From the NCBI RefSeq assembly GCF_013280595.1, contig NZ_JAAATY010000002.1:186001-250000 (forward strand): a DNA stretch of 64,000 bases, in the 5' to 3' direction. Positions within the stretch are counted from its first letter, which is position 1, and every line of letters begins with the position of its first letter. Both the position numbers and the translations under genes were made by a program. A model generated the notes under the pieces. It saw nothing but the letters and a program-made list of their open reading frames with translations, was not told where the DNA came from and ran no database searches. Of the stretch, positions 8,714 through 15,873 are shown in pieces. The DNA comes from Kibdelosporangium persicum. GTDB lineage: Bacteria; Actinomycetota; Actinomycetes; Mycobacteriales; Pseudonocardiaceae.

Positions 8714-9400
8714 ATGGTCCCAATTGTTTTGGTCCACGGCATCCGCGCACACGCGGGTGCCTGGGTCGCGTACTCGTTCGGGCACCCCGTCGACCTACCC
8801 GGTCACGGTGTCCGGCTCGGCGGCACGTTCACCATGCCGTCAGCGGTCTCCGTGGTCGCCGACGCGATCGACTCCCTCGGCGGGCGGGCCTTGGTCGTCG
8901 GCCATTCGATGGGCGGGTACGTCTCGATGGCCGTGGCGGCCGCCCATCCTTCGCGCGTCGCAGGCCTCGTCATCGCCGGGGCGACGACTGTGCCGGACCG
9001 CTTCGCGACCGCGCCGTTCCTGGCGATGTACCGGATGCTGAGCCGCTTGCCCGACGGCGGCGACCGGTTGAGCCGCCGCATCTTCAGCGCCACACTTCCG
9101 TCCGATGTGGCCGCCGCGGTGACCTCCGGTCCAATCGCGACACCCGCGATCCCTTCCGTGGTCGCCGCTTTGCGTTCCTTCGACCCACTGTCCGCCGTGG
9201 CGCGGTACCCCGGTCCCACGTGGTTCATCAACGGCGGCCACGACCACCTCCGCTTCCACGAACGCAAATTCCTCGCCGCAGCACAGAACGGCCGCCTGAT
9301 CGTCATCCCCGGCACCGGCCACTACCTGCCCATGACGCACCCCACGCTCTTCGCACGCCACATCCTCGACGCCGCCGCAGTCGTCCACCACTCCGCCTGA
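8714..9400 (+). CDS. Alpha/beta hydrolase
   Basis: 228 residues. The oxyanion segment LVHGIRAH, the nucleophile elbow GHSMGGY (~residue 63), an Asp in GGHDHLR and the final His in GTGHYLP make a complete Ser-Asp-His triad. It follows the CoxG-like gene by 10 bp, so it is the last gene of the catabolic operon. Expected to cleave an ester, a thioester or a C-C bond; the substrate cannot be told. It ends 87 bp before the left repeat of the island. Confidence 0.9.
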   Translation: MVPIVLVHGIRAHAGAWVAYSFGHPVDLPGHGVRLGGTFTMPSAVSVVADAIDSLGGRALVVGHSMGGYVSMAVAAAHPSRVAGLVIAGATTVPDRFATAPFLAMYRMLSRLPDGGDRLSRRIFSATLPSDVAAAVTSGPIATPAIPSVVAALRSFDPLSAVARYPGPTWFINGGHDHLRFHERKFLAAAQNGRLIVIPGTGHYLPMTHPTLFARHILDAAAVVHHSA

Positions 9401-9487: not shown

Positions 9488-9659
9488 CTGTCGGCGTTGA
9501 TCGACCGGCACTGTGGCGAGGGCGACTGTGCGGACAGCACGGCGAGATGGTCTACAACCGGAAGGGGTGCCTCCCGAGATCGGGAAGCACCCCTTCTGAA
9601 CTGCTGAAACTGCAAGAGAGCGGATGACGGGAATCGAACCCGCGTATTCAGCTTGGGAA
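9488..9659. repeat. Left direct repeat of tRNA-Gly island (attL-like)
   Basis: 172 bp identical to 15672-15843 except for two bases (A/G in CTACA-CCGG and A/T in the hairpin loop). It contains a copy of the 3' 40 nt of tRNA-Gly(CCC) at 9620-9659, ending in the anticodon loop, plus the tRNA terminator hairpin at 9562-9595. The break at the anticodon loop is typical for tyrosine-recombinase integration into tRNA genes; 130 bp of extra identity beyond the tRNA end is unusual. Confidence 0.85.
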
Positions 9660-9941
9660 TCAGAACGATCAACAACCGCACCGCCTCCAACCAGCATCGC
9701 CGCCTGGACCCACATGACCGCTGTTGACCGTGGTTGACCAGCGCTAATAGCACGCAGACAGCACGCTACTTCAGGCCTTGTGCGCTTCAGCCCGCGTCGA
9801 TTTCCTGTAGGAGGCGGGCGGACTGCGTTCTCGAAGAGGAAGCGCATGAGACACTGGGATGGGAGCCATACGGTCACCCTCTTATGCGTAACGTATAGCT
9901 CACCCCCCTTCACCCTCCGTTGAGTGAGTTGAAGGGATGCC
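9660..9941. other. Non-coding left end of island
   Basis: No convincing gene. Short direct repeats GTTGACC at 9723-9729 and 9733-9739 (10-bp period) and GCACGC-N5-GCACGC at 9750-9766 lie 60-110 bp inside the repeat. That is where arm-type binding sites of a tyrosine integrase would be expected, though no integrase gene remains next to them. Confidence 0.35.
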
Positions 9942-10100
9942 ATGTTGTTCATGTGGCCCTCGTTGGTCGCTGCCGCCCTGGTGATGGTCGTTGCCGGGAC
10001 AGTGGCTGTACTGCATCCAGACCGTGCACGTCGTGCGGACGCACGACTGGTCATGGCGGCGATTGAGCGGTTGCTGATGCGGCTGAGGTCGCGACGGTGA
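9942..10100 (+). CDS. Small single-pass membrane protein of island
   Basis: 52 residues from an ATG preceded by GAAGGGA. The product starts MLFMWPSLVAAALVMVV, a single hydrophobic helix, followed by a basic, Arg-rich cytoplasmic tail (RARRADARL, RLLMRLRSRR). Short hydrophobic proteins are common in actinomycete integrative elements, some as spread proteins; I cannot assign this one. It is the only reading frame in the left 800 bp of the island with a proper ribosome site. Confidence 0.5.
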   Translation: MLFMWPSLVAAALVMVVAGTVAVLHPDRARRADARLVMAAIERLLMRLRSRR

Positions 10101-10481
10101 AGTAGCTCATTACCGGGCAGAGCTGGGGTGCATCCCTTGGTGTGCCCCGGTGGCCGTTGGCGCGGAGCGTCGACGGGCGTCGATCGCCGTGCCCAGCTCG
10201 ATGAGGTCTGCACGCGGCGATCGTCACGGCGCCGTGCGGCTGGTGGTTCTACTCCTACGCGTCGCCGGTGGCCACCTGCTCACGCGGCAGCTCGGGTCTG
10301 GCCGGGCGGCCGACCGGGCGTAGCGGAGCGGGAGCCCGGTCGTGTCGTGATGGATCGGCCCGAGCTGCGAGCGTGACGCGCGCCGCCACCGGCGGCGCGC
10401 CTTGATCTCATAGAGCCAAATTCGGCAGGCAACTACATGGTCGGGCGCTATAAGGTTTGACAGCACATTGAAAGGAGTGCT
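10101..10481. other. Intergenic region before HNH operon, with hairpin
   Basis: No gene is supported. A perfect inverted repeat GCGCGCCGCC-ACC-GGCGGCGCGC at 10378-10400 could stop transcription entering from the left. TATAAG at 10449-10454 could be a -10 element for the HNH operon; the ribosome site AAAGGAG is at 10471-10477. Confidence 0.4.
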
Positions 10482-11201
10482 GTGGCAAGGAAGTCAGCAA
10501 GACGCGTAGAGCTGTCGCAGCCAGCGAAGGACCGGTTGTGGTCGGAGTCTGGTGGACACTGTCAGAACCCTGAATGCCGCGCTGATCTTCATGGTTTCCT
10601 GAAGCGAAAACACATCGGCGAGTTGGCGCATATTATTCCGGCAAGTTTTGAAGGTCCCCGAGCGGACGAAGCAATGGAGCTTTCGGAGGACGAACGTGCA
10701 ATGCCAGAGAACGTCCTAGTTCTGTGCCCAACATGTCATACTGTGATCGACAAAGCACCAAGCGAATATCCAACTTCCGTATTACGCACGTGGAAGACAC
10801 GCAGCCAAGAAGCTCGCACCACCGCCCATGGAACACCGGTGTTCCATTCCAGATTTGAGGCGCGACAGTTCATTGAAGGGCTACTGGACGCCAATCGCGC
10901 CGTGTTCAACCTATATGGACCGCTTGATAACGCTTATGATAGCACGCGGGCTGAACAGTGGCGCCGCCACGTGAACGGCACGATTATTCCGAATAATCGA
11001 GTAATACTGCGAGTACTGCAAGCCAACCGCCGCCTGTTAACAGATGCAGAAAAGATGACTCTCGGCATCTTTGCTGTTCACGTTCGAGAACTTACAGAAC
11101 GCCACCTAGAGGGAAACTGGACTCCTGGCTCAACCAAGTTTCCCAGTGCTATGGAGTCAATTCTGAAAGAGGACGGATGGGAATCCAGCGCTGGATCGTA
11201 G
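10482..11201 (+). CDS. HNH endonuclease-domain protein
   Basis: 239 residues from GTG. Residues ~27-90 form an HNH/treble-clef nuclease: CQNPEC, then HIGELAHIIPAS carrying the core His, an ENVLVLCPTCH block with the Asn and the second Cys pair, and a final ID. All metal and zinc ligands appear intact. Residues ~120-239 are a separate, mostly helical region with LLDANRAVFNLYGPL and a W...IIPNNRVIL pattern; I cannot name the fold. It is first gene of an AT-rich operon and overlaps the next gene by 25 bp. Probably a DNA-cutting effector of a defence-type system (inference from context). Confidence 0.8.
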   Translation: MARKSARRVELSQPAKDRLWSESGGHCQNPECRADLHGFLKRKHIGELAHIIPASFEGPRADEAMELSEDERAMPENVLVLCPTCHTVIDKAPSEYPTSVLRTWKTRSQEARTTAHGTPVFHSRFEARQFIEGLLDANRAVFNLYGPLDNAYDSTRAEQWRRHVNGTIIPNNRVILRVLQANRRLLTDAEKMTLGIFAVHVRELTERHLEGNWTPGSTKFPSAMESILKEDGWESSAGS

Positions 11202-11869
11202 AACAGCTGCACAAGAGGTTTAATTTTGACCAAGTCGATTTCGGCACGAAGACTCCTTATGCGGTCAAGACGATTGGCGACTACGGGGTGGAGATAACAC
11301 GGCCAGGCAAGTCACCTGCGGTTGCGTATTGCGTAGAGCCGGACAATTTCAACTCATTTACAGTCCAGATGTTCCAGGATGCGATCGATACCCTCCCTCA
11401 AACAGGTATGCTAATAGTCACGCGAAGGGCTATTGATCCCGACGTACTCGACTACGCTCGCCATGTAGATGTATGTGTAGAGACATTTGGCGGTTTCGTT
11501 AACGCCATTTATTCACTAGATGATATTTCGCAGTATGTGGACCCGGAAGAAGTTTACGTCCGCAGGAGACTGAGGGGGACCAGGGCTGTGACATCAATAG
11601 CCCGTCGAGGTCTTCGAGCATTGGAACTCCAACGCATCAAGAACCTTCGACCGTTAATGATAGTTTTTAATAATCGGTATGAGCTAACTGACGACGAGTT
11701 TGCCGAAATGCTCAACCGGTACCCTAAGCTGATCATAGACGCATTGGTCATTACTAACCCAAATACACAGGGTTTCGGAGACCGCGTTGTACAGACCGCC
11801 CGCCATGCAAATGTGCGGCTATATACATTCAACGAATTCATCGCCATGATTCGGAACCCATGGACCTAA
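11177..11869 (+). CDS. Unknown protein with two similar alpha/beta halves, island operon
   Basis: 230 residues; function not recognised. Two halves look alike: TGMLIVTRRAID..V.DYAR..DV.VETFGGFVNAI (~76-114) and DALVITNPNT....RVVQTAR..NVRLYTFNEFIAMI (~187-227). Each has a beta-strand, a helix and a final strand followed by a short hydrophobic helix, the order seen at the end of Mrr/PD-(D/E)XK-like restriction folds. An acidic pair in GDYGVEIT and a Glu in YCVEPD could be remnants of a nuclease site; this is weak. The ATG has AGAGGACGG upstream and lies inside the HNH gene, so translation is coupled. Confidence 0.65.
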   Translation: MGIQRWIVEQLHKRFNFDQVDFGTKTPYAVKTIGDYGVEITRPGKSPAVAYCVEPDNFNSFTVQMFQDAIDTLPQTGMLIVTRRAIDPDVLDYARHVDVCVETFGGFVNAIYSLDDISQYVDPEEVYVRRRLRGTRAVTSIARRGLRALELQRIKNLRPLMIVFNNRYELTDDEFAEMLNRYPKLIIDALVITNPNTQGFGDRVVQTARHANVRLYTFNEFIAMIRNPWT

Positions 11870-12150
11870 AGAGCCAGTGGCCCGTCCTTGATGAAATTTG
11901 TCGATGCGTCGACCGTCTCTCCGGGCTACAGGTTTGGGCATTTGGGTCCATGCTGCGGTCTGGCACGCCGAACGACTTGGACGTTCTGATTGTGTATATC
12001 GATCGAGCTGACGTAGTTGCTTTGCGGGAAATGGGCATGTGGGAGGTAAACTTTCCCCCGGTGGATATGATTGCTATGACGCCAGACGAGGAGCACTACT
12101 ACCAGTTCGTACGCATGACAGGCGCAATACGCTTGTACCCACCGGCCTGA
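11860..12150 (+). CDS. Minimal nucleotidyltransferase (MNT-like)
   Basis: 96 residues. The polymerase-beta-type core is present: AFGSMLRSGTPNDLDVLI gives the GS motif and the DxD pair (~residues 28-43), and PVDMIAM supplies the third Asp. Such single-domain enzymes usually AMPylate or otherwise modify a toxin (MNT-HEPN pairs). Here no HEPN partner is present; the partners are the HNH protein and the unknown protein. It overlaps the upstream gene by 10 bp and has no good ribosome site of its own, so coupling is likely. Confidence 0.75.
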   Translation: MDLKSQWPVLDEICRCVDRLSGLQVWAFGSMLRSGTPNDLDVLIVYIDRADVVALREMGMWEVNFPPVDMIAMTPDEEHYYQFVRMTGAIRLYPPA

Positions 12151-12184
12151 ATCTTATGAGTTAACATTTCCACCGCTCAAGCCT

Positions 12185-12886
12185 TCACACAACATGAAGT
12201 GAAACTAGTAGAATTTGGATTTCCGTAGTGATTGCCGCAGCTTTTGCTTCCATAAGTTGCTCGACCTTACCGGCCTTGTTGGCGTATCCAACAGCTACGA
12301 TTTGAGCGGCGTTGGCAGCTTCGATGTCGGTGGTTGAGTCGCCAACAAGAGTCGACCGAGCGGGTTGCGCTCCAAGCGCGTCGACAGCCTGGCTCACAAG
12401 ATGAGGATTTGGCTTGAGCATCGAAACATTCGCAGCAGTTCGGGCAGCGATGTAATCGACGTATTGGTGGAGATCGTAAAGGTCCAGGTATGTCTCAACA
12501 GCTGTACGTGAGTTATTGCTGACGATGGCGAGGTTGCGATGAGTGCCCTTCCAAGCCTTGATGAGCGCGTGGGCGCCTGGTGTGGGCTCGGCGCTGTGGA
12601 TGGCTTCTACTTCGTGCGCACGGAAGGCGGCGTTGAGGAGCTCGGCTTCTTTACCGCCGAGTGTGGCTGTGTAGTGGAGGAGGTCGAAGGGGTCGGTCGC
12701 GGCAGCCACGTCGGGCGGTAGCACATGACCGGCTTCGGTGAGGATCTCGGCGAGTTGTCTGGCTACGACTGGGGCAGGGAAGCCTGCGAAGACTGAGCAG
12801 ATCGGGCCGTCGAAGTCGAGTAGGAGGGCGTCGGTGTTGGCCAGGATGCGGGCGATGACGTCTGGGTCGTCGACGGGCACGGTCAC
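12185..12886 (-). CDS. HAD-superfamily hydrolase
   Basis: 233 residues from a GTG that overlaps the GntR stop (GTGA). All four HAD motifs are present: D24-F-D26 in LLLDFDGPI (nucleophile and acid), IVSNNS, the Lys in LKPNPH and VGDSTTDIEAAN. The cap sits between motifs I and II (C1 type), as in phosphoglycolate phosphatase-like enzymes. It forms a two-gene unit with the GntR regulator, pointing away from the rest of the element genes. GntR-HAD pairs occur in actinomycete integrative elements; the substrate is unknown. Confidence 0.88.
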   Translation of the reverse strand: MTVPVDDPDVIARILANTDALLLDFDGPICSVFAGFPAPVVARQLAEILTEAGHVLPPDVAAATDPFDLLHYTATLGGKEAELLNAAFRAHEVEAIHSAEPTPGAHALIKAWKGTHRNLAIVSNNSRTAVETYLDLYDLHQYVDYIAARTAANVSMLKPNPHLVSQAVDALGAQPARSTLVGDSTTDIEAANAAQIVAVGYANKAGKVEQLMEAKAAAITTEIQILLVSLHVV

Positions 12887-13725
12887 CGGACGTACTCCCG
12901 GGCGACGGTGGTCCACATGCTGTCGAACCACATGCGTGATTGCTCTACGTATTGACTGCCGGTGCTGGTGTCGTCGTCGCTGATGGAGTGGTGGAAGAGG
13001 ATGGCGTCCTTGCCCATCAGGTCGTAGATCGCTTGAGGTTCGCCGCCCAGGCTGAGGACGTGCTCGCGGACTGGGTAGTAGCCGAAGAAGGCCTCTTCGT
13101 TGTTGATCAGGTAGAGCTTGAACAGCGGGGCTGCTGGGTGGACTCGGATTTCCGCGGTGGCCTTCTCGACCAGGCCGAGTGACGCCAGCTCGGTCACGGC
13201 GTCGACTATGGCCAGGGTGTGGCGGCGCATGATCTCTGTGGCGCGCTCGCGGAAGGCCGGACTGTCTTTGAGGCCCTCGACTGTGACCGGCAACGACCAA
13301 GGCACCGATGGGTCTGGGACCAACATCCGGACGGCGATGGTCTGTGGGGTGAGCCGGCCGATTCGGATCTTGTCGATTGGCTCGGAGATCACTCCGTGCA
13401 GGGTCTCGCCGGAGAATCCTGCAAAGTCGATCCTGACGTGCTCGGCTGAGAAGGCTCGCTCGATGTGGGGACGTAGGCCGACCGGTCGCTCTGTGCGCTC
13501 TCGGACGAAGACCCCGCTCCCCTGGCGCGACACGATCAGACCCTCGTCCCGAAGCTCACGCAAGGCGTTCTGAACGGTCATCGGCGCGACTTCATAGCGC
13601 TTCGCCAGTTCGGTCCTTGACGGCAGCTTGTCGCCTGCCTGGAAAACCTTGGTGAGGATGGCAGCTCTCAAGGCATTCGCCACCTGCACGTATGGCGGAC
13701 GTGGGTCGTCCGGATCGAGTGCCAT
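12883..13725 (-). CDS. GntR-family transcriptional regulator
   Basis: 280 residues. Residues ~10-75 are a GntR winged helix: YVQVANALRAAIL, AGDKLPSRTELAKRYEV, then TVQNALRELRDEGLIV and GSGVFVRE. The C-terminal ~200 residues are neither FCD nor UTRA by eye; they carry FFGYYPV and GKDAILFHHS. It diverges from the 13935 gene, and the gap holds repeated CTTGTCTAG boxes that are its probable operators. Regulators of this kind (KorSA-like) control transfer or replication in actinomycete elements. Confidence 0.88.
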   Translation of the reverse strand: MALDPDDPRPPYVQVANALRAAILTKVFQAGDKLPSRTELAKRYEVAPMTVQNALRELRDEGLIVSRQGSGVFVRERTERPVGLRPHIERAFSAEHVRIDFAGFSGETLHGVISEPIDKIRIGRLTPQTIAVRMLVPDPSVPWSLPVTVEGLKDSPAFRERATEIMRRHTLAIVDAVTELASLGLVEKATAEIRVHPAAPLFKLYLINNEEAFFGYYPVREHVLSLGGEPQAIYDLMGKDAILFHHSISDDDTSTGSQYVEQSRMWFDSMWTTVAREYVR

Positions 13726-13807
13726 ATGCCCTCGTGCCTCCCTTGTCGCAGCGTCTGCTTGATCGGCATCAAGCTTCAGATCCCAACCATCAGACTCAAG
13801 CTTAGAG

Positions 13808-13860
13808 CTTGTCTAGGCCAGCTAGCTAGACAGTCGACCCAGCTTGCTTGACTTGTCTAG
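13808..13860. promoter_or_regulatory. Repeated CTTGTCTAG operator boxes
   Basis: CTTGTCTAG occurs exactly at 13808-13816 and 13852-13860, starts 44 bp apart (about four helical turns). An inverted copy CTAGACAG at 13826-13833 makes a palindrome with the first box. They lie between the divergent GntR gene and the 13935 gene; the latter has GGAGGA at 13921-13926. Probably bound by the GntR protein. Confidence 0.5.
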
Positions 13861-13934
13861 CCAGGCTGGCTAAGCTGGCCACGTCAGACACGCTAGATAG
13901 CTTGGGCTCAACGCCCACCAGGAGGACAACAGTC

Positions 13935-14390
13935 ATGGCGGTTCCGCGCGGTACGCGCTTCGCGATTGAGCACGACACGGTGTTTCCGGATGGGGCTGCG
14001 GTGGTCGGCCCTGTTGCTCCGGACATGGAGTACGTCTCCAACGAGGACAAAGCCAGGGGTAAGCAGCCAAAGCAGAAGGTCGACGAAGTCACCGGGCTTC
14101 CACAGTGGAAGGTGACGGTCTCAGATCCGTCCGCGGAGAAGGACCGGGACAAGTCCGTCTCCGTCGTGCTGCTGGCCAAGGTCCAGCCGGTTCCTCCGCC
14201 TGCCGCTGTGGCGGGCTTCGACCTTCGGCCCGTCGTGTTCGAGGGCTTGATGGTTGAGCCCCGGGTGATGGGCGAGAAGTTCAAGTACCAGGGCTGGGTT
14301 CTGCGGGCCACCGGCATGCGGGATCCGAAGAAGTCCAGCTCGGGTAAGCCTGCTGGTCAGGCGCCGAGTGAGCAGAACAAGGCGGCGTGA
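13935..14390 (+). CDS. Conserved actinomycete integrative-element protein
   Basis: 151 residues from the ATG preceded by GGAGGA. The start MAVPRGTRFAIEHD and the core with QWKVTVSDP, VSVVLLAKVQPVPPP and FDLRPVVFEGL are what I recognise from a small protein family encoded next to transfer and replication genes of actinomycete elements; its role is not known to me. The tail is Lys/Ser/Gln-rich and disordered. It is first of three tightly linked plus-strand genes (1- to 4-bp overlaps). Confidence 0.7.
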   Translation: MAVPRGTRFAIEHDTVFPDGAAVVGPVAPDMEYVSNEDKARGKQPKQKVDEVTGLPQWKVTVSDPSAEKDRDKSVSVVLLAKVQPVPPPAAVAGFDLRPVVFEGLMVEPRVMGEKFKYQGWVLRATGMRDPKKSSSGKPAGQAPSEQNKAA

Positions 14391-14683
14391 TGGCCGCGCG
14401 GCCGTCAAGGGAGGCGGTCGCTCGGTGGAACGACGCGTACTCCGAGCAGACGGCGGCCTTGTTCGCCGCCATGAGGGCACAGCCTCACGACGTTGCGGCG
14501 ATCCGCCGTCTTGCTCGGGGTTACCTGTCTGTCGCTATCGCCTGGCGCAGCTTGGCGGCTGATCTTGCTGTGCCTATGTGGGCGCGGCATGCCTCGGTCA
14601 TCGCTGCTGAGGAGTTCGAGCGGCGGGCACAGCTCGAAGACACCCGCGCTGACTTGGCAAGCATTGAGGGACAAGACCTATGA
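14390..14683 (+). CDS. Small helical protein of island
   Basis: 97 residues, no recognised domain. The composition is Ala/Arg-rich and predicted helical throughout (for example ARWNDAYSEQTAALF and MRAQPHDVAAIRRL). The stop of the preceding gene shares one base with the ATG at 14390; a GTG 3 bp upstream is an alternative start. The stop overlaps the regulator gene by 4 bp. The third-position GC bias and coupling support a real gene. Confidence 0.7.
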   Translation: MAARPSREAVARWNDAYSEQTAALFAAMRAQPHDVAAIRRLARGYLSVAIAWRSLAADLAVPMWARHASVIAAEEFERRAQLEDTRADLASIEGQDL

Positions 14684-15537
14684 CCGCGAGACCAAGCAAG
14701 ATCCCGAACTTCCACGTGCGGCGACTGAGCCGCAAACTCGCCGAACTACGGACCAAAGCTGGTCTGACCCAGAAGGACCCCTACGAGACAACGAAGATCG
14801 ACTTCCGGCGGATCTGGCGGTTCGAGAACGGTGAGCAGATCCCGCGCTTTGTGGAGCTGAACGCCCTGCTCGACCTGTACGGCGTTCCGAGCTTCGAGTG
14901 GGAGCCCTACCACGACATGTGGAATGCGGCCAGGCAGAAGGGCTGGTGGCACGGTCAGCCTCTGCGGAACATCGACTTCGTCGCCAACGAACAGGAAGCC
15001 AGCCACATCCGGGACGTACAACTGACCTACGTACCCGAACTGCTGCAAACAGAGGAGTACGCCCGTCGAGTGCTGGACACCTGCGTACCTCCGATGAGCA
15101 ACAACCGCCTGTCCGTCGAACTGGCCAGCCGTCCAGTGCGTCAGCAGCGGCTCGACGCGGAGAGTCCAGTCAAGCTGCATGCGCTGATCTACCAGCCAGT
15201 CATCCACGCCAGGGTCGACAAGGCGCAACTTCGACTGCTCGCGGACCGGGCCGACCAGGCGAACGTGACGCTGCAAATCCTGCCGCGCATGGATGAACCA
15301 CACGGCGCTCTCGCCGGCTCGTTCACCTTGCTGTCCTTTCCGGACAGGGACGAACCAGACCTCGGCTACACCTCAGAACCCCTCGGCTTGAAGATGTCCG
15401 ATGACCCTGAGATGACCACGGAGCTAGGGCGGATATTCAAGGCCCTCGCACGCCGCTCGAAGTCTCCCGAAGAGTCCCGTGCCTACCTCGACAAGCTGCT
15501 CAACCAGCGACACCTAGCGGGGACCGGCATCCGATGA
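14680..15537 (+). CDS. XRE-family regulator with DUF5753 domain
   Basis: 285 residues. Residues ~10-65 form a helix-turn-helix: RRLSRKLAELRTKAGLTQ then RRIWRFENGEQIPR. The rest is the DUF5753 ligand-like domain: DVQLTYVPELLQTEEYARRV, a PVRQQRL stretch and LQILPRMDEPHGALAGSFTLL. Such regulators are abundant in streptomycetes and relatives and are often paired with small DUF397-type proteins, absent here. It is the last gene before the right repeat. Confidence 0.9.
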   Translation: MTARPSKIPNFHVRRLSRKLAELRTKAGLTQKDPYETTKIDFRRIWRFENGEQIPRFVELNALLDLYGVPSFEWEPYHDMWNAARQKGWWHGQPLRNIDFVANEQEASHIRDVQLTYVPELLQTEEYARRVLDTCVPPMSNNRLSVELASRPVRQQRLDAESPVKLHALIYQPVIHARVDKAQLRLLADRADQANVTLQILPRMDEPHGALAGSFTLLSFPDRDEPDLGYTSEPLGLKMSDDPEMTTELGRIFKALARRSKSPEESRAYLDKLLNQRHLAGTGIR

Positions 15538-15671
15538 CACATCGCCCAAACAGATCGCGAACGAGCACGGCAGCGGCCATCCCGGTCCACAAGAGACAGT
15601 CACGGCGAGTCGTGCGGCAATGACCGGATGGCTCGGATGGGGCTGACGACATGCGGATCGCACTGCTCTAC

Positions 15672-15843
15672 CTGTCGGCGTTGATCGACCGGCACTGTGG
15701 CGAGGGCGACTGTGCGGACAGCACGGCGAGATGGTCTACAGCCGGAAGGGGTGCCTCCCGTGATCGGGAAGCACCCCTTCTGAACTGCTGAAACTGCAAG
15801 AGAGCGGATGACGGGAATCGAACCCGCGTATTCAGCTTGGGAA
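15672..15843. repeat. Right direct repeat of tRNA-Gly island (attR-like)
   Basis: 172 bp, 170 identical to 9488-9659. Its right part is the 3' half of the intact tRNA-Gly gene; its left part is the tRNA terminator (15746-15779) and 70 bp beyond. Recombination between the two copies would remove 6184 bp and leave one intact tRNA. Confidence 0.85.
15746..15779 (-). terminator. Terminator of tRNA-Gly
   Basis: Stem AAGGGGTGCCTCCCG / CGGGAAGCACCCCTT with one mismatch and a TGAT loop, 23 bp downstream of the tRNA 3' end. An equal copy lies at 9562-9595 in the left repeat. Confidence 0.65.
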
Positions 15844-15873
15844 GCTGATGTTCTACCATTGAACTACATCCGC
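15803..15873 (-). tRNA. tRNA-Gly (anticodon CCC)
   Basis: 71 nt on the minus strand. Acceptor stem GCGGATG/CATCCGC with a U discriminator, D-arm GTTC/GAAC, anticodon stem TCAGC/GCTGA around loop TTCCCAA (anticodon CCC), and T-arm with TTCGATT. CCA is not encoded. It stays intact because the island carries a copy of its 3' half. It is divergent from dcd 55 bp away, a common actinobacterial neighbourhood. Confidence 0.95.

Follow-up and report, generated by a model that had tools for sequence, protein, structure and literature searches.

A mobile three-gene operon of an HNH nuclease, a middle protein and a minimal nucleotidyltransferase, probably an uncharacterized anti-phage system

Introduction

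In the HepT–MntA system, a minimal nucleotidyltransferase (NTase), MntA, with the motif GSX10DXD, adds three AMPs to Tyr104 of HepT; changing D39 and D41 of MntA to E abolishes the modification (PMC7641770). In MNT-HEPN pairs the MNT antitoxin gene almost always comes first (PMC3710099). Cap5, an effector of the cyclic oligonucleotide-based anti-phage signaling system (CBASS), combines an HNH nuclease domain with a SAVED domain. The interval between gpA and gpQ of P2 prophages is a hotspot of anti-phage systems, from which eight systems beyond old-tin have been cloned, three of them active; the anti-P1 system of Rousset et al. consists of three genes in which no clear domain is predicted (PMC9122126). 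Here we analyze three overlapping genes—‘the trio’—found in a 64,000-nt stretch of DNA from Kibdelosporangium persicum (‘the window’; contig NZ_JAAATY010000002.1, positions 186,001 to 250,000). In order, they encode an HNH nuclease, a middle protein and a minimal NTase. Because the trio recurs in several phyla and sits at an antiviral hotspot in prophages of Escherichia coli, it is probably an uncharacterized anti-phage system.

A conserved operon

The genes of the trio lie on one strand, the HNH and middle genes overlapping by 25 nt and the middle and NTase genes by 10 nt. At 51.8% G+C (GC; HNH 53.3%, middle 49.1%, NTase 54.6%) the trio is well below the window, at 67.0%, and of 312 overlapping 1,669-bp pieces of the window, four are as low or lower. 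The original prediction, made from the letters of the window, had described three overlapping genes of lower GC on a mobile island, with intact HNH and NTase motifs. The overlaps and the composition are as it said, and the island and the motifs held up equally well, on the evidence given below.

GTDB genomes were scanned with an alignment of the HNH protein. Of the 154 relatives found, the 80 best were retained, with the HNH gene as the sole basis of choice. Seventy-six of these 80 have the complete trio in the same gene order, and wherever a complete trio was read the NTase gene comes third. At 73 of the 80 loci the next two open reading frames (ORFs) passed a filter for expected length; all 73 third ORFs carry FGS…DxD, and the middle gene is long (~213 aa) in 63 and short (~129 aa) in 10. 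Three further loci, L011, L017 and L052, fall outside the filter and proved complete on inspection, the NTase of L017 starting at GTG or TTG. The last four are a possible fusion (L018), a partly deleted middle gene (L039), a locus broken near a contig end (L021) and one that meets a contig end (L062). In L018, from an actinobacterial metagenome-assembled genome (L018:5956-7196), the N-terminal half of the middle protein runs into the NTase core, by fusion or assembly error. The NTase frame of L052, from Cryobacterium, extends ~190 residues that look ParB-like by eye (L052:7294-8172), and may also be a fusion.

Going by record titles, the 80 loci belong to Pseudomonadota (48), Actinomycetota (14), Bacteroidota (11) and Acidobacteriota (2), with single loci from Omnitrophota, Chloroflexota, Armatimonadota and Thermodesulfobacteriota; one locus is unassigned. 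All eight of these phyla are represented among the 73 filtered trios, and many of the loci come from metagenome bins. When the window copy is added to these 73, the junction between HNH and middle genes is at most 20 nt in 74/74, and the middle and NTase genes abut or overlap in 69/74; overlaps are favored by construction here, because the script picked start codons near the upstream stop, but gene order is unaffected. On a tree of the HNH proteins the short middle type represents a single change, and the window copy groups with actinobacterial copies (99% by the Shimodaira–Hasegawa-like approximate likelihood ratio test, SH-aLRT). Judged from sequence, the trio is more than a chance association, because its gene order is conserved across phyla.

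Full-length HNH relatives occur on plasmids, too. Eight plasmid loci were read, and each has an NTase motif downstream; in two cases (L008 and L004) the frame is short, at 72–74 aa. The middle gene is long in five (Vibrio, Phaeobacter, Rhizobium, Ensifer and Polymorphobacter) and short in three (Klebsiella, Acinetobacter and Novosphingobium). On viral contigs 14 HNH loci were matched, eight of them over the C-terminal part of the protein, and the NTase motif lies downstream in all eight of these.

Closer to home, the middle gene was found in one of 100 related genomes, namely the window's own. Among 396 genomes of the window's phylum (taken as Actinomycetota) the HNH protein was matched at E ≤ 1e-8 in four, and over its C-terminal part as well in two, the window's own genome and G258. 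A further 299 genomes came from the phylum to which the Stutzerimonas genome behind L076 belongs; HNH was matched at E ≤ 1e-20 in 12 of them, with long matches in five: the center genome G491, G590, G681, G723, and G605 (positions 14–208). The middle profile was matched in G491, G590, G681 and G723, each time adjoining the HNH gene; a marginal match in G701 lies at the edge of a contig. Since the secure matches in these 299 genomes all adjoin HNH, the middle gene has not been securely seen apart from an HNH gene. The HNH relative in G605 (L114) lies in a 370-aa frame, possibly a divergent architecture.

The HNH protein

The HNH domain spans residues ~8–115 (H50, N77 and H86; cysteines 27, 32, 82 and 85), and the remainder of the protein, ~122–228, is predicted to form a helical C-terminal domain. 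H50, N77, H86 and the four cysteines are identical in 74/74 aligned copies, window included. For the cysteines and H86 this invariance is partly selected, because they lie in the HNH peptide patterns that were used for fetching relatives; H50, N77 and the NTase residues lie outside those patterns.

Among PADLOC models the best match of the domain is component A of PDC-M68 (E 3e-22), but the match is not full length: residues 12–113 of 239 align with positions 6–109 of 253 in the model. Effector and SAVED_HNH models match the window protein at residues 3–113 alone, and SAVED is not matched. As far as profiles and structural models can tell, the HNH domain is a nuclease domain of the CBASS Cap5 type, and by analogy with Cap5 it would cut DNA. 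The best profile match in the PDB is to 9om4 (‘HNH endonuclease’, 435 aa; E 6.5e-23, profile positions 9–116). The HNH protein of E. coli ATCC 8739 exceeds the Pfam HNH_2 cutoff narrowly, at 21.4 vs 21 bits.

The helical domain resembles generic bundles only, with weak structural matches (VIA-align), and no Rx4-6H motif was recognized in it by eye. An AbiQ match of the E. coli HNH copy was weak (E 0.0028) and was treated as chance.

The middle protein

As modeled (AlphaFold2, AF2; predicted local distance difference test, pLDDT, 95.1), the middle protein is a pair of tandem PD-(D/E)XK-like folds, catalytically degenerate; its two halves are homologous to each other (probability 98.8). The original prediction could call this gene only ‘unknown’, a description that is thus refined. 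No pair of columns with [DEQ]xK, as the catalytic D…(D/E)xK would require, is present in ≥25% of 64 aligned rows, and a reading as an active restriction nuclease was rejected for lack of the catalytic motif. What is conserved is a tyrosine: Tyr168 is invariant in 77/77 and, besides Met1, is the sole invariant residue of the protein.

The family was reached only by way of its HNH neighbor. The window protein belongs to no Pfam, NCBIfam or PADLOC family, with one sub-threshold NCBIfam match, and the 64 members together touch 11 PADLOC and nine Pfam families at E ≤ 0.1, each in one to three members and none recurrently. A tblastn search with the middle protein gave no match in plasmids or phages, and a profile search of the PDB gave nothing convincing.

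The minimal nucleotidyltransferase

By sequence comparison, the third protein belongs with the minimal NTases. It has F28-G29-S30, then D39 and D41, then a third acid, D69, and E77. FGS and both aspartates of DxD are invariant in 74/74 NTases, window included, with the spacing GSX7-11DXD throughout and nine as the modal spacer (38 copies); the position of E77 is E in 72/74. Pfam NTP_transf_2 (PF01909) is matched by 64 of 74 members and Polbeta (PF18765) by 56 at E ≤ 0.1, the window copy lying below the Pfam cutoff (E 0.079). Three PADLOC candidate models (PDC-S09, PDC-M05A and PDC-M63A) match up to 40/74 NTases at E ≤ 0.1, at best ~1e-6, and do not match the window copy. Of the PADLOC cyclase models among the matches listed (25 of 27 families), none is found in more than three of the 74 at that threshold. 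Against the PDB, the family profile finds minimal NTases, including 1ylq, 2rff, 1no5, 1wot and MntA itself (5yep).

Genomic setting

A trio of the Enterobacter type is present in 16 of 5,426 E. coli genomes, over at least 80% in 14 of them. Five loci of this main type were inspected (ATCC 8739, 14EC007, LR-29-1, F374 and STEC17-183), and each is placed in a P2-like prophage between gpA, the replication endonuclease gene, and gpQ, the portal gene, with a different upstream gene every time. The ATCC 8739 copy is at NC_010468.1 3046693-3048361 (ECOLC_RS14930-14920). In most E. coli copies all three genes are annotated as encoding hypothetical proteins. Five other P2 prophages that were inspected carry different cassettes at this site. 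One strain, I4, has a second type of trio (L096:7989-9615), on an island that also carries yfj/ypj genes; nearby are two more genes with an HNH endonuclease annotation.

Defence-type genes lie within 6 kb of five of the eight plasmid trios: Shedu (L003), DUF1837, presumably Hachiman HamA (L004), DUF4238 (L005), an ABC-three-component system (L006), and Drt3 together with an NTase-HEPN protein (L009). A descriptive PADLOC scan, made without a control set, covered 140 of the 161 ORFs in the flanks of 54 loci and gave matches to 216 models at E ≤ 1e-10. Among the matches listed (25 of these models) are mad3 (three ORFs) and AriA (two), with one ORF each for GajA, LmuB, LmuC, AbiEi/AbiEii, a type III methyltransferase, a type I specificity subunit and others. 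From location, a defence role of some kind is likely. The claim of the original prediction that this was a new defence system fares accordingly: it has gained a horizontally mobile, defence-associated three-gene operon, while ‘new defence’ itself rests on location—the P2 hotspot and the plasmid neighbors—and the trio could yet be the anti-P1 system.

In the window the trio sits on an island of ~6.2 kb between 177-nt direct repeats, 98% identical, with a tRNA-Gly gene as the apparent insertion target (Table 1). Both flanks of the island were searched for in seven congeners (G001–G007). In four (G003, G004, G006 and G007) the island is missing, because the left flank is only 76–163 bp from tRNA-Gly; a match to the neighboring hydrolase gene at 8714-9400 is also missing in G006 and G007. 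G002 has an insertion of ~1.4 kb, G005 is not colinear, and the insertion in G001 is a different one, ~4.6 kb long, that includes a partial tRNA copy. This last insert (L152), at the same tRNA-Gly, is related to the island: it has the HAD gene and, by eye, a C-terminal fragment resembling an integrase, and none of the ORFs listed for it was seen to belong to the trio. The island (9488-15848) has the appearance of an integrative element remnant, on which no integrase was recognized; its other genes include a HAD hydrolase (12185-13300, minus strand), a GntR regulator (12883-13725, minus strand) and an HTH-DUF5753 regulator (14680-15537).

Table 1. Positions of the trio and of the features that bound its island, in window coordinates
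Feature	Position	Strand	Remarks
HNH nuclease gene	10482..11201	+	239 aa, GTG start; ORF call
Middle gene	11177..11869	+	230 aa, ATG start; ORF call
Minimal nucleotidyltransferase (NTase) gene	11860..12150	+	96 aa, ATG start; ORF call
Left flanking repeat of island	9488..9664		177 nt; holds partial tRNA-Gly copy at 9618-9659
Right flanking repeat of island	15672..15848		177 nt; overlaps tRNA-Gly
tRNA-Gly (ccc)	15802..15873	-	apparent insertion target of island

A possible mechanism and its rivals

How might three such proteins work together? We picture a three-subunit defence module, carried on mobile elements, in which all three proteins would form one complex. The HNH protein would be the effector, a DNase like Cap5. 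The middle protein would dock the HNH and NTase subunits to one another, and would probably contact nucleic acid or sense infection. Since the NTase is ~96 aa, with no room for an acceptor domain, it presumably modifies a partner and not a small molecule. It might do so as MntA does, most likely by placing AMP on Y168 of the middle protein, a mark that would silence the HNH nuclease as long as the cell is healthy. On infection by another phage the marking would stop or be reversed, whereupon the HNH protein would degrade phage DNA, host DNA, or both. To this mechanism in full, in which nucleotidylation, most likely at Y168, would control an HNH nuclease, we assign a probability of about 0.42.

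A number of observations weigh against it, or against the defence role that it presupposes. The NTase gene is last in the trio, the opposite of the MNT-first rule. At the position of the third NTase acid 44 of the 74 copies have D, 26 have H and 4 have E, and at least 12 changes are needed to account for this on the HNH tree; classical catalysis, therefore, may not be strictly required. An invariant tyrosine can be structural, and the L018 fusion loses Tyr168 along with the second pseudo-nuclease unit. G605 has an HNH relative matched over profile positions 14–208, and no middle gene was detected in that genome. As for location, the I4 trio lies outside the P2 hotspot, and three of the eight plasmid loci (L002, L007 and L008) have no annotated defence gene nearby.

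A bolder reading is that the trio represents a class of bacterial immunity not described before. A minimal NTase would attach one nucleotide or more to the invariant tyrosine of a tandem pseudo-restriction-nuclease, and this mark would switch a Cap5-type HNH DNase. The nuclease domain of CBASS would thus have exchanged a diffusible signal for a covalent, protein-bound one, and prophages, plasmids and islands would have spread the arrangement across phyla. This reading we regard as doubtful.

The alternative that survives best, though unlikely, resembles restriction. The pseudo-nuclease would recognize some feature of DNA—a modification, ends, or a replication intermediate—and direct the HNH nuclease to it, leaving the NTase to act solely as a nucleotide-binding regulator or sensor. 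Preservation of GS and both DxD aspartates in 74/74 NTases would be unusual for a purely structural subunit, however, and a lone invariant tyrosine would not be a typical signature of DNA binding.

Rather improbable, too, is that the trio is known already. DefenseFinder has a model, Rst_3HP, that we take to be the three-gene system reported by Rousset et al. in 2022. The main E. coli trio occupies the same gpA–gpQ site, its copies are mostly annotated as three hypothetical proteins, and Rst_3HP is itself mostly prophage-encoded (PMC9090908). Against this identity, the system was described as lacking any clear predicted domain, whereas the ATCC 8739 HNH protein passes the HNH_2 cutoff, if only by 0.4 bits; and another three-gene cassette at the site is slightly commoner than the trio, in 21 vs 16 of the 5,426 genomes (the search modes differed). 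It is these two points, the narrowness of the first included, that led us to rate identity low. The cassette in question (L101:3592-5810; 368, 139 and 221 aa) has no Pfam match above cutoff and no PADLOC match at E ≤ 0.01, and is a better candidate than the trio for the anti-P1 system.

Less probable again is a toxin-antitoxin or addiction module that stabilizes mobile elements and has no direct anti-phage role, the HNH protein being the toxin and the middle protein and NTase the antitoxin. The genes are small, adjoin one another and sit on islands, plasmids and prophages, which would suit this interpretation, as would an NTase related to MNT; but the effector gene is first and the NTase gene last, and the trio is found repeatedly at a validated antiviral hotspot amid varied neighbors. 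Very unlikely, finally, is a CBASS-like arrangement in which a nucleotide signal from the NTase activates the HNH effector, for although the HNH domain matches Cap5 effectors, the NTase is 96 aa with the scarce cyclase matches given above, the effector-model matches stop near residue 113 without SAVED, and the C-terminal part is helical.

Should control by nucleotidylation prove correct, it would tie a Cap5-type HNH effector to protein nucleotidylation of the MntA type, through a pseudo-nuclease intermediary. It would also explain a gene cluster, at a validated antiviral hotspot, that is still annotated as ‘three hypothetical proteins’. The trio yields a precise mechanistic prediction, turning on Y168, D39/D41 and H50, and a copy is to hand in E. 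coli ATCC 8739, a culture-collection strain.

Comparison with known systems

No named system was found for the trio in PADLOC 2.0.0, Pfam or NCBIfam, nor in the literature searched, in keeping with the original prediction, which did not recognize it as one. Literature searches, including ones aimed at the trio, found no description of it, and it is not described in the available parts of PMC9122126, PMC9519451, PMC12839542, PMC3710099, PMC9090908, PMC13249269, PMC7641770 or PMC12409345. NCBIfam names neither the HNH protein nor the NTase in the window copies; Pfam names the HNH domain and, in relatives, the NTase fold. Two comparisons made at the outset, ‘unlike CBASS’ and ‘unlike MNT-HEPN pairs (no HEPN)’, fared differently. 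The first stands, the NTase being much too short to serve as a CBASS cyclase, and a reading as CBASS was rejected on that size and on the lack of SAVED. A plain HEPN-MNT reading was likewise rejected, on gene order and partners; ‘no HEPN’ is itself a tentative point, given the C-terminal helical bundle of the HNH protein with its weak, generic structural matches.

With Cap5 of CBASS the trio shares the type of HNH domain; it differs in having no matched SAVED and no CD-NTase, a helical C-terminal half and other partner genes. Its likeness to PDC-M68 is confined to the HNH domain, and the middle protein has no recurrent match among PADLOC models. Compared with PD-(D/E)XK nucleases and pseudo-nucleases such as Can2, EndoMS, the RPB5 N-domain and FANCM/FAAP24, the middle protein is without the (D/E)xK motif and has a tandem duplication and an invariant tyrosine. 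Like HepT–MntA, the trio has a minimal NTase with FGS…DxD and, in a partner protein, a possible tyrosine acceptor. The partners are instead an HNH nuclease and a pseudo-REase (pseudo-restriction endonuclease), the NTase gene is last, and the motif is GSX7-11DXD, most often with nine, instead of GSX10DXD. Rst_3HP, compared by description only, shares three genes and the P2 gpA–gpQ hotspot with the main E. coli type, and not with the I4 copy or the window; it was described without clear domains, whereas the trio has an HNH protein above the HNH_2 cutoff. The parts of the trio, then, are each of a known kind; their combination is a widespread and coherent operon, new to the libraries and literature searched.
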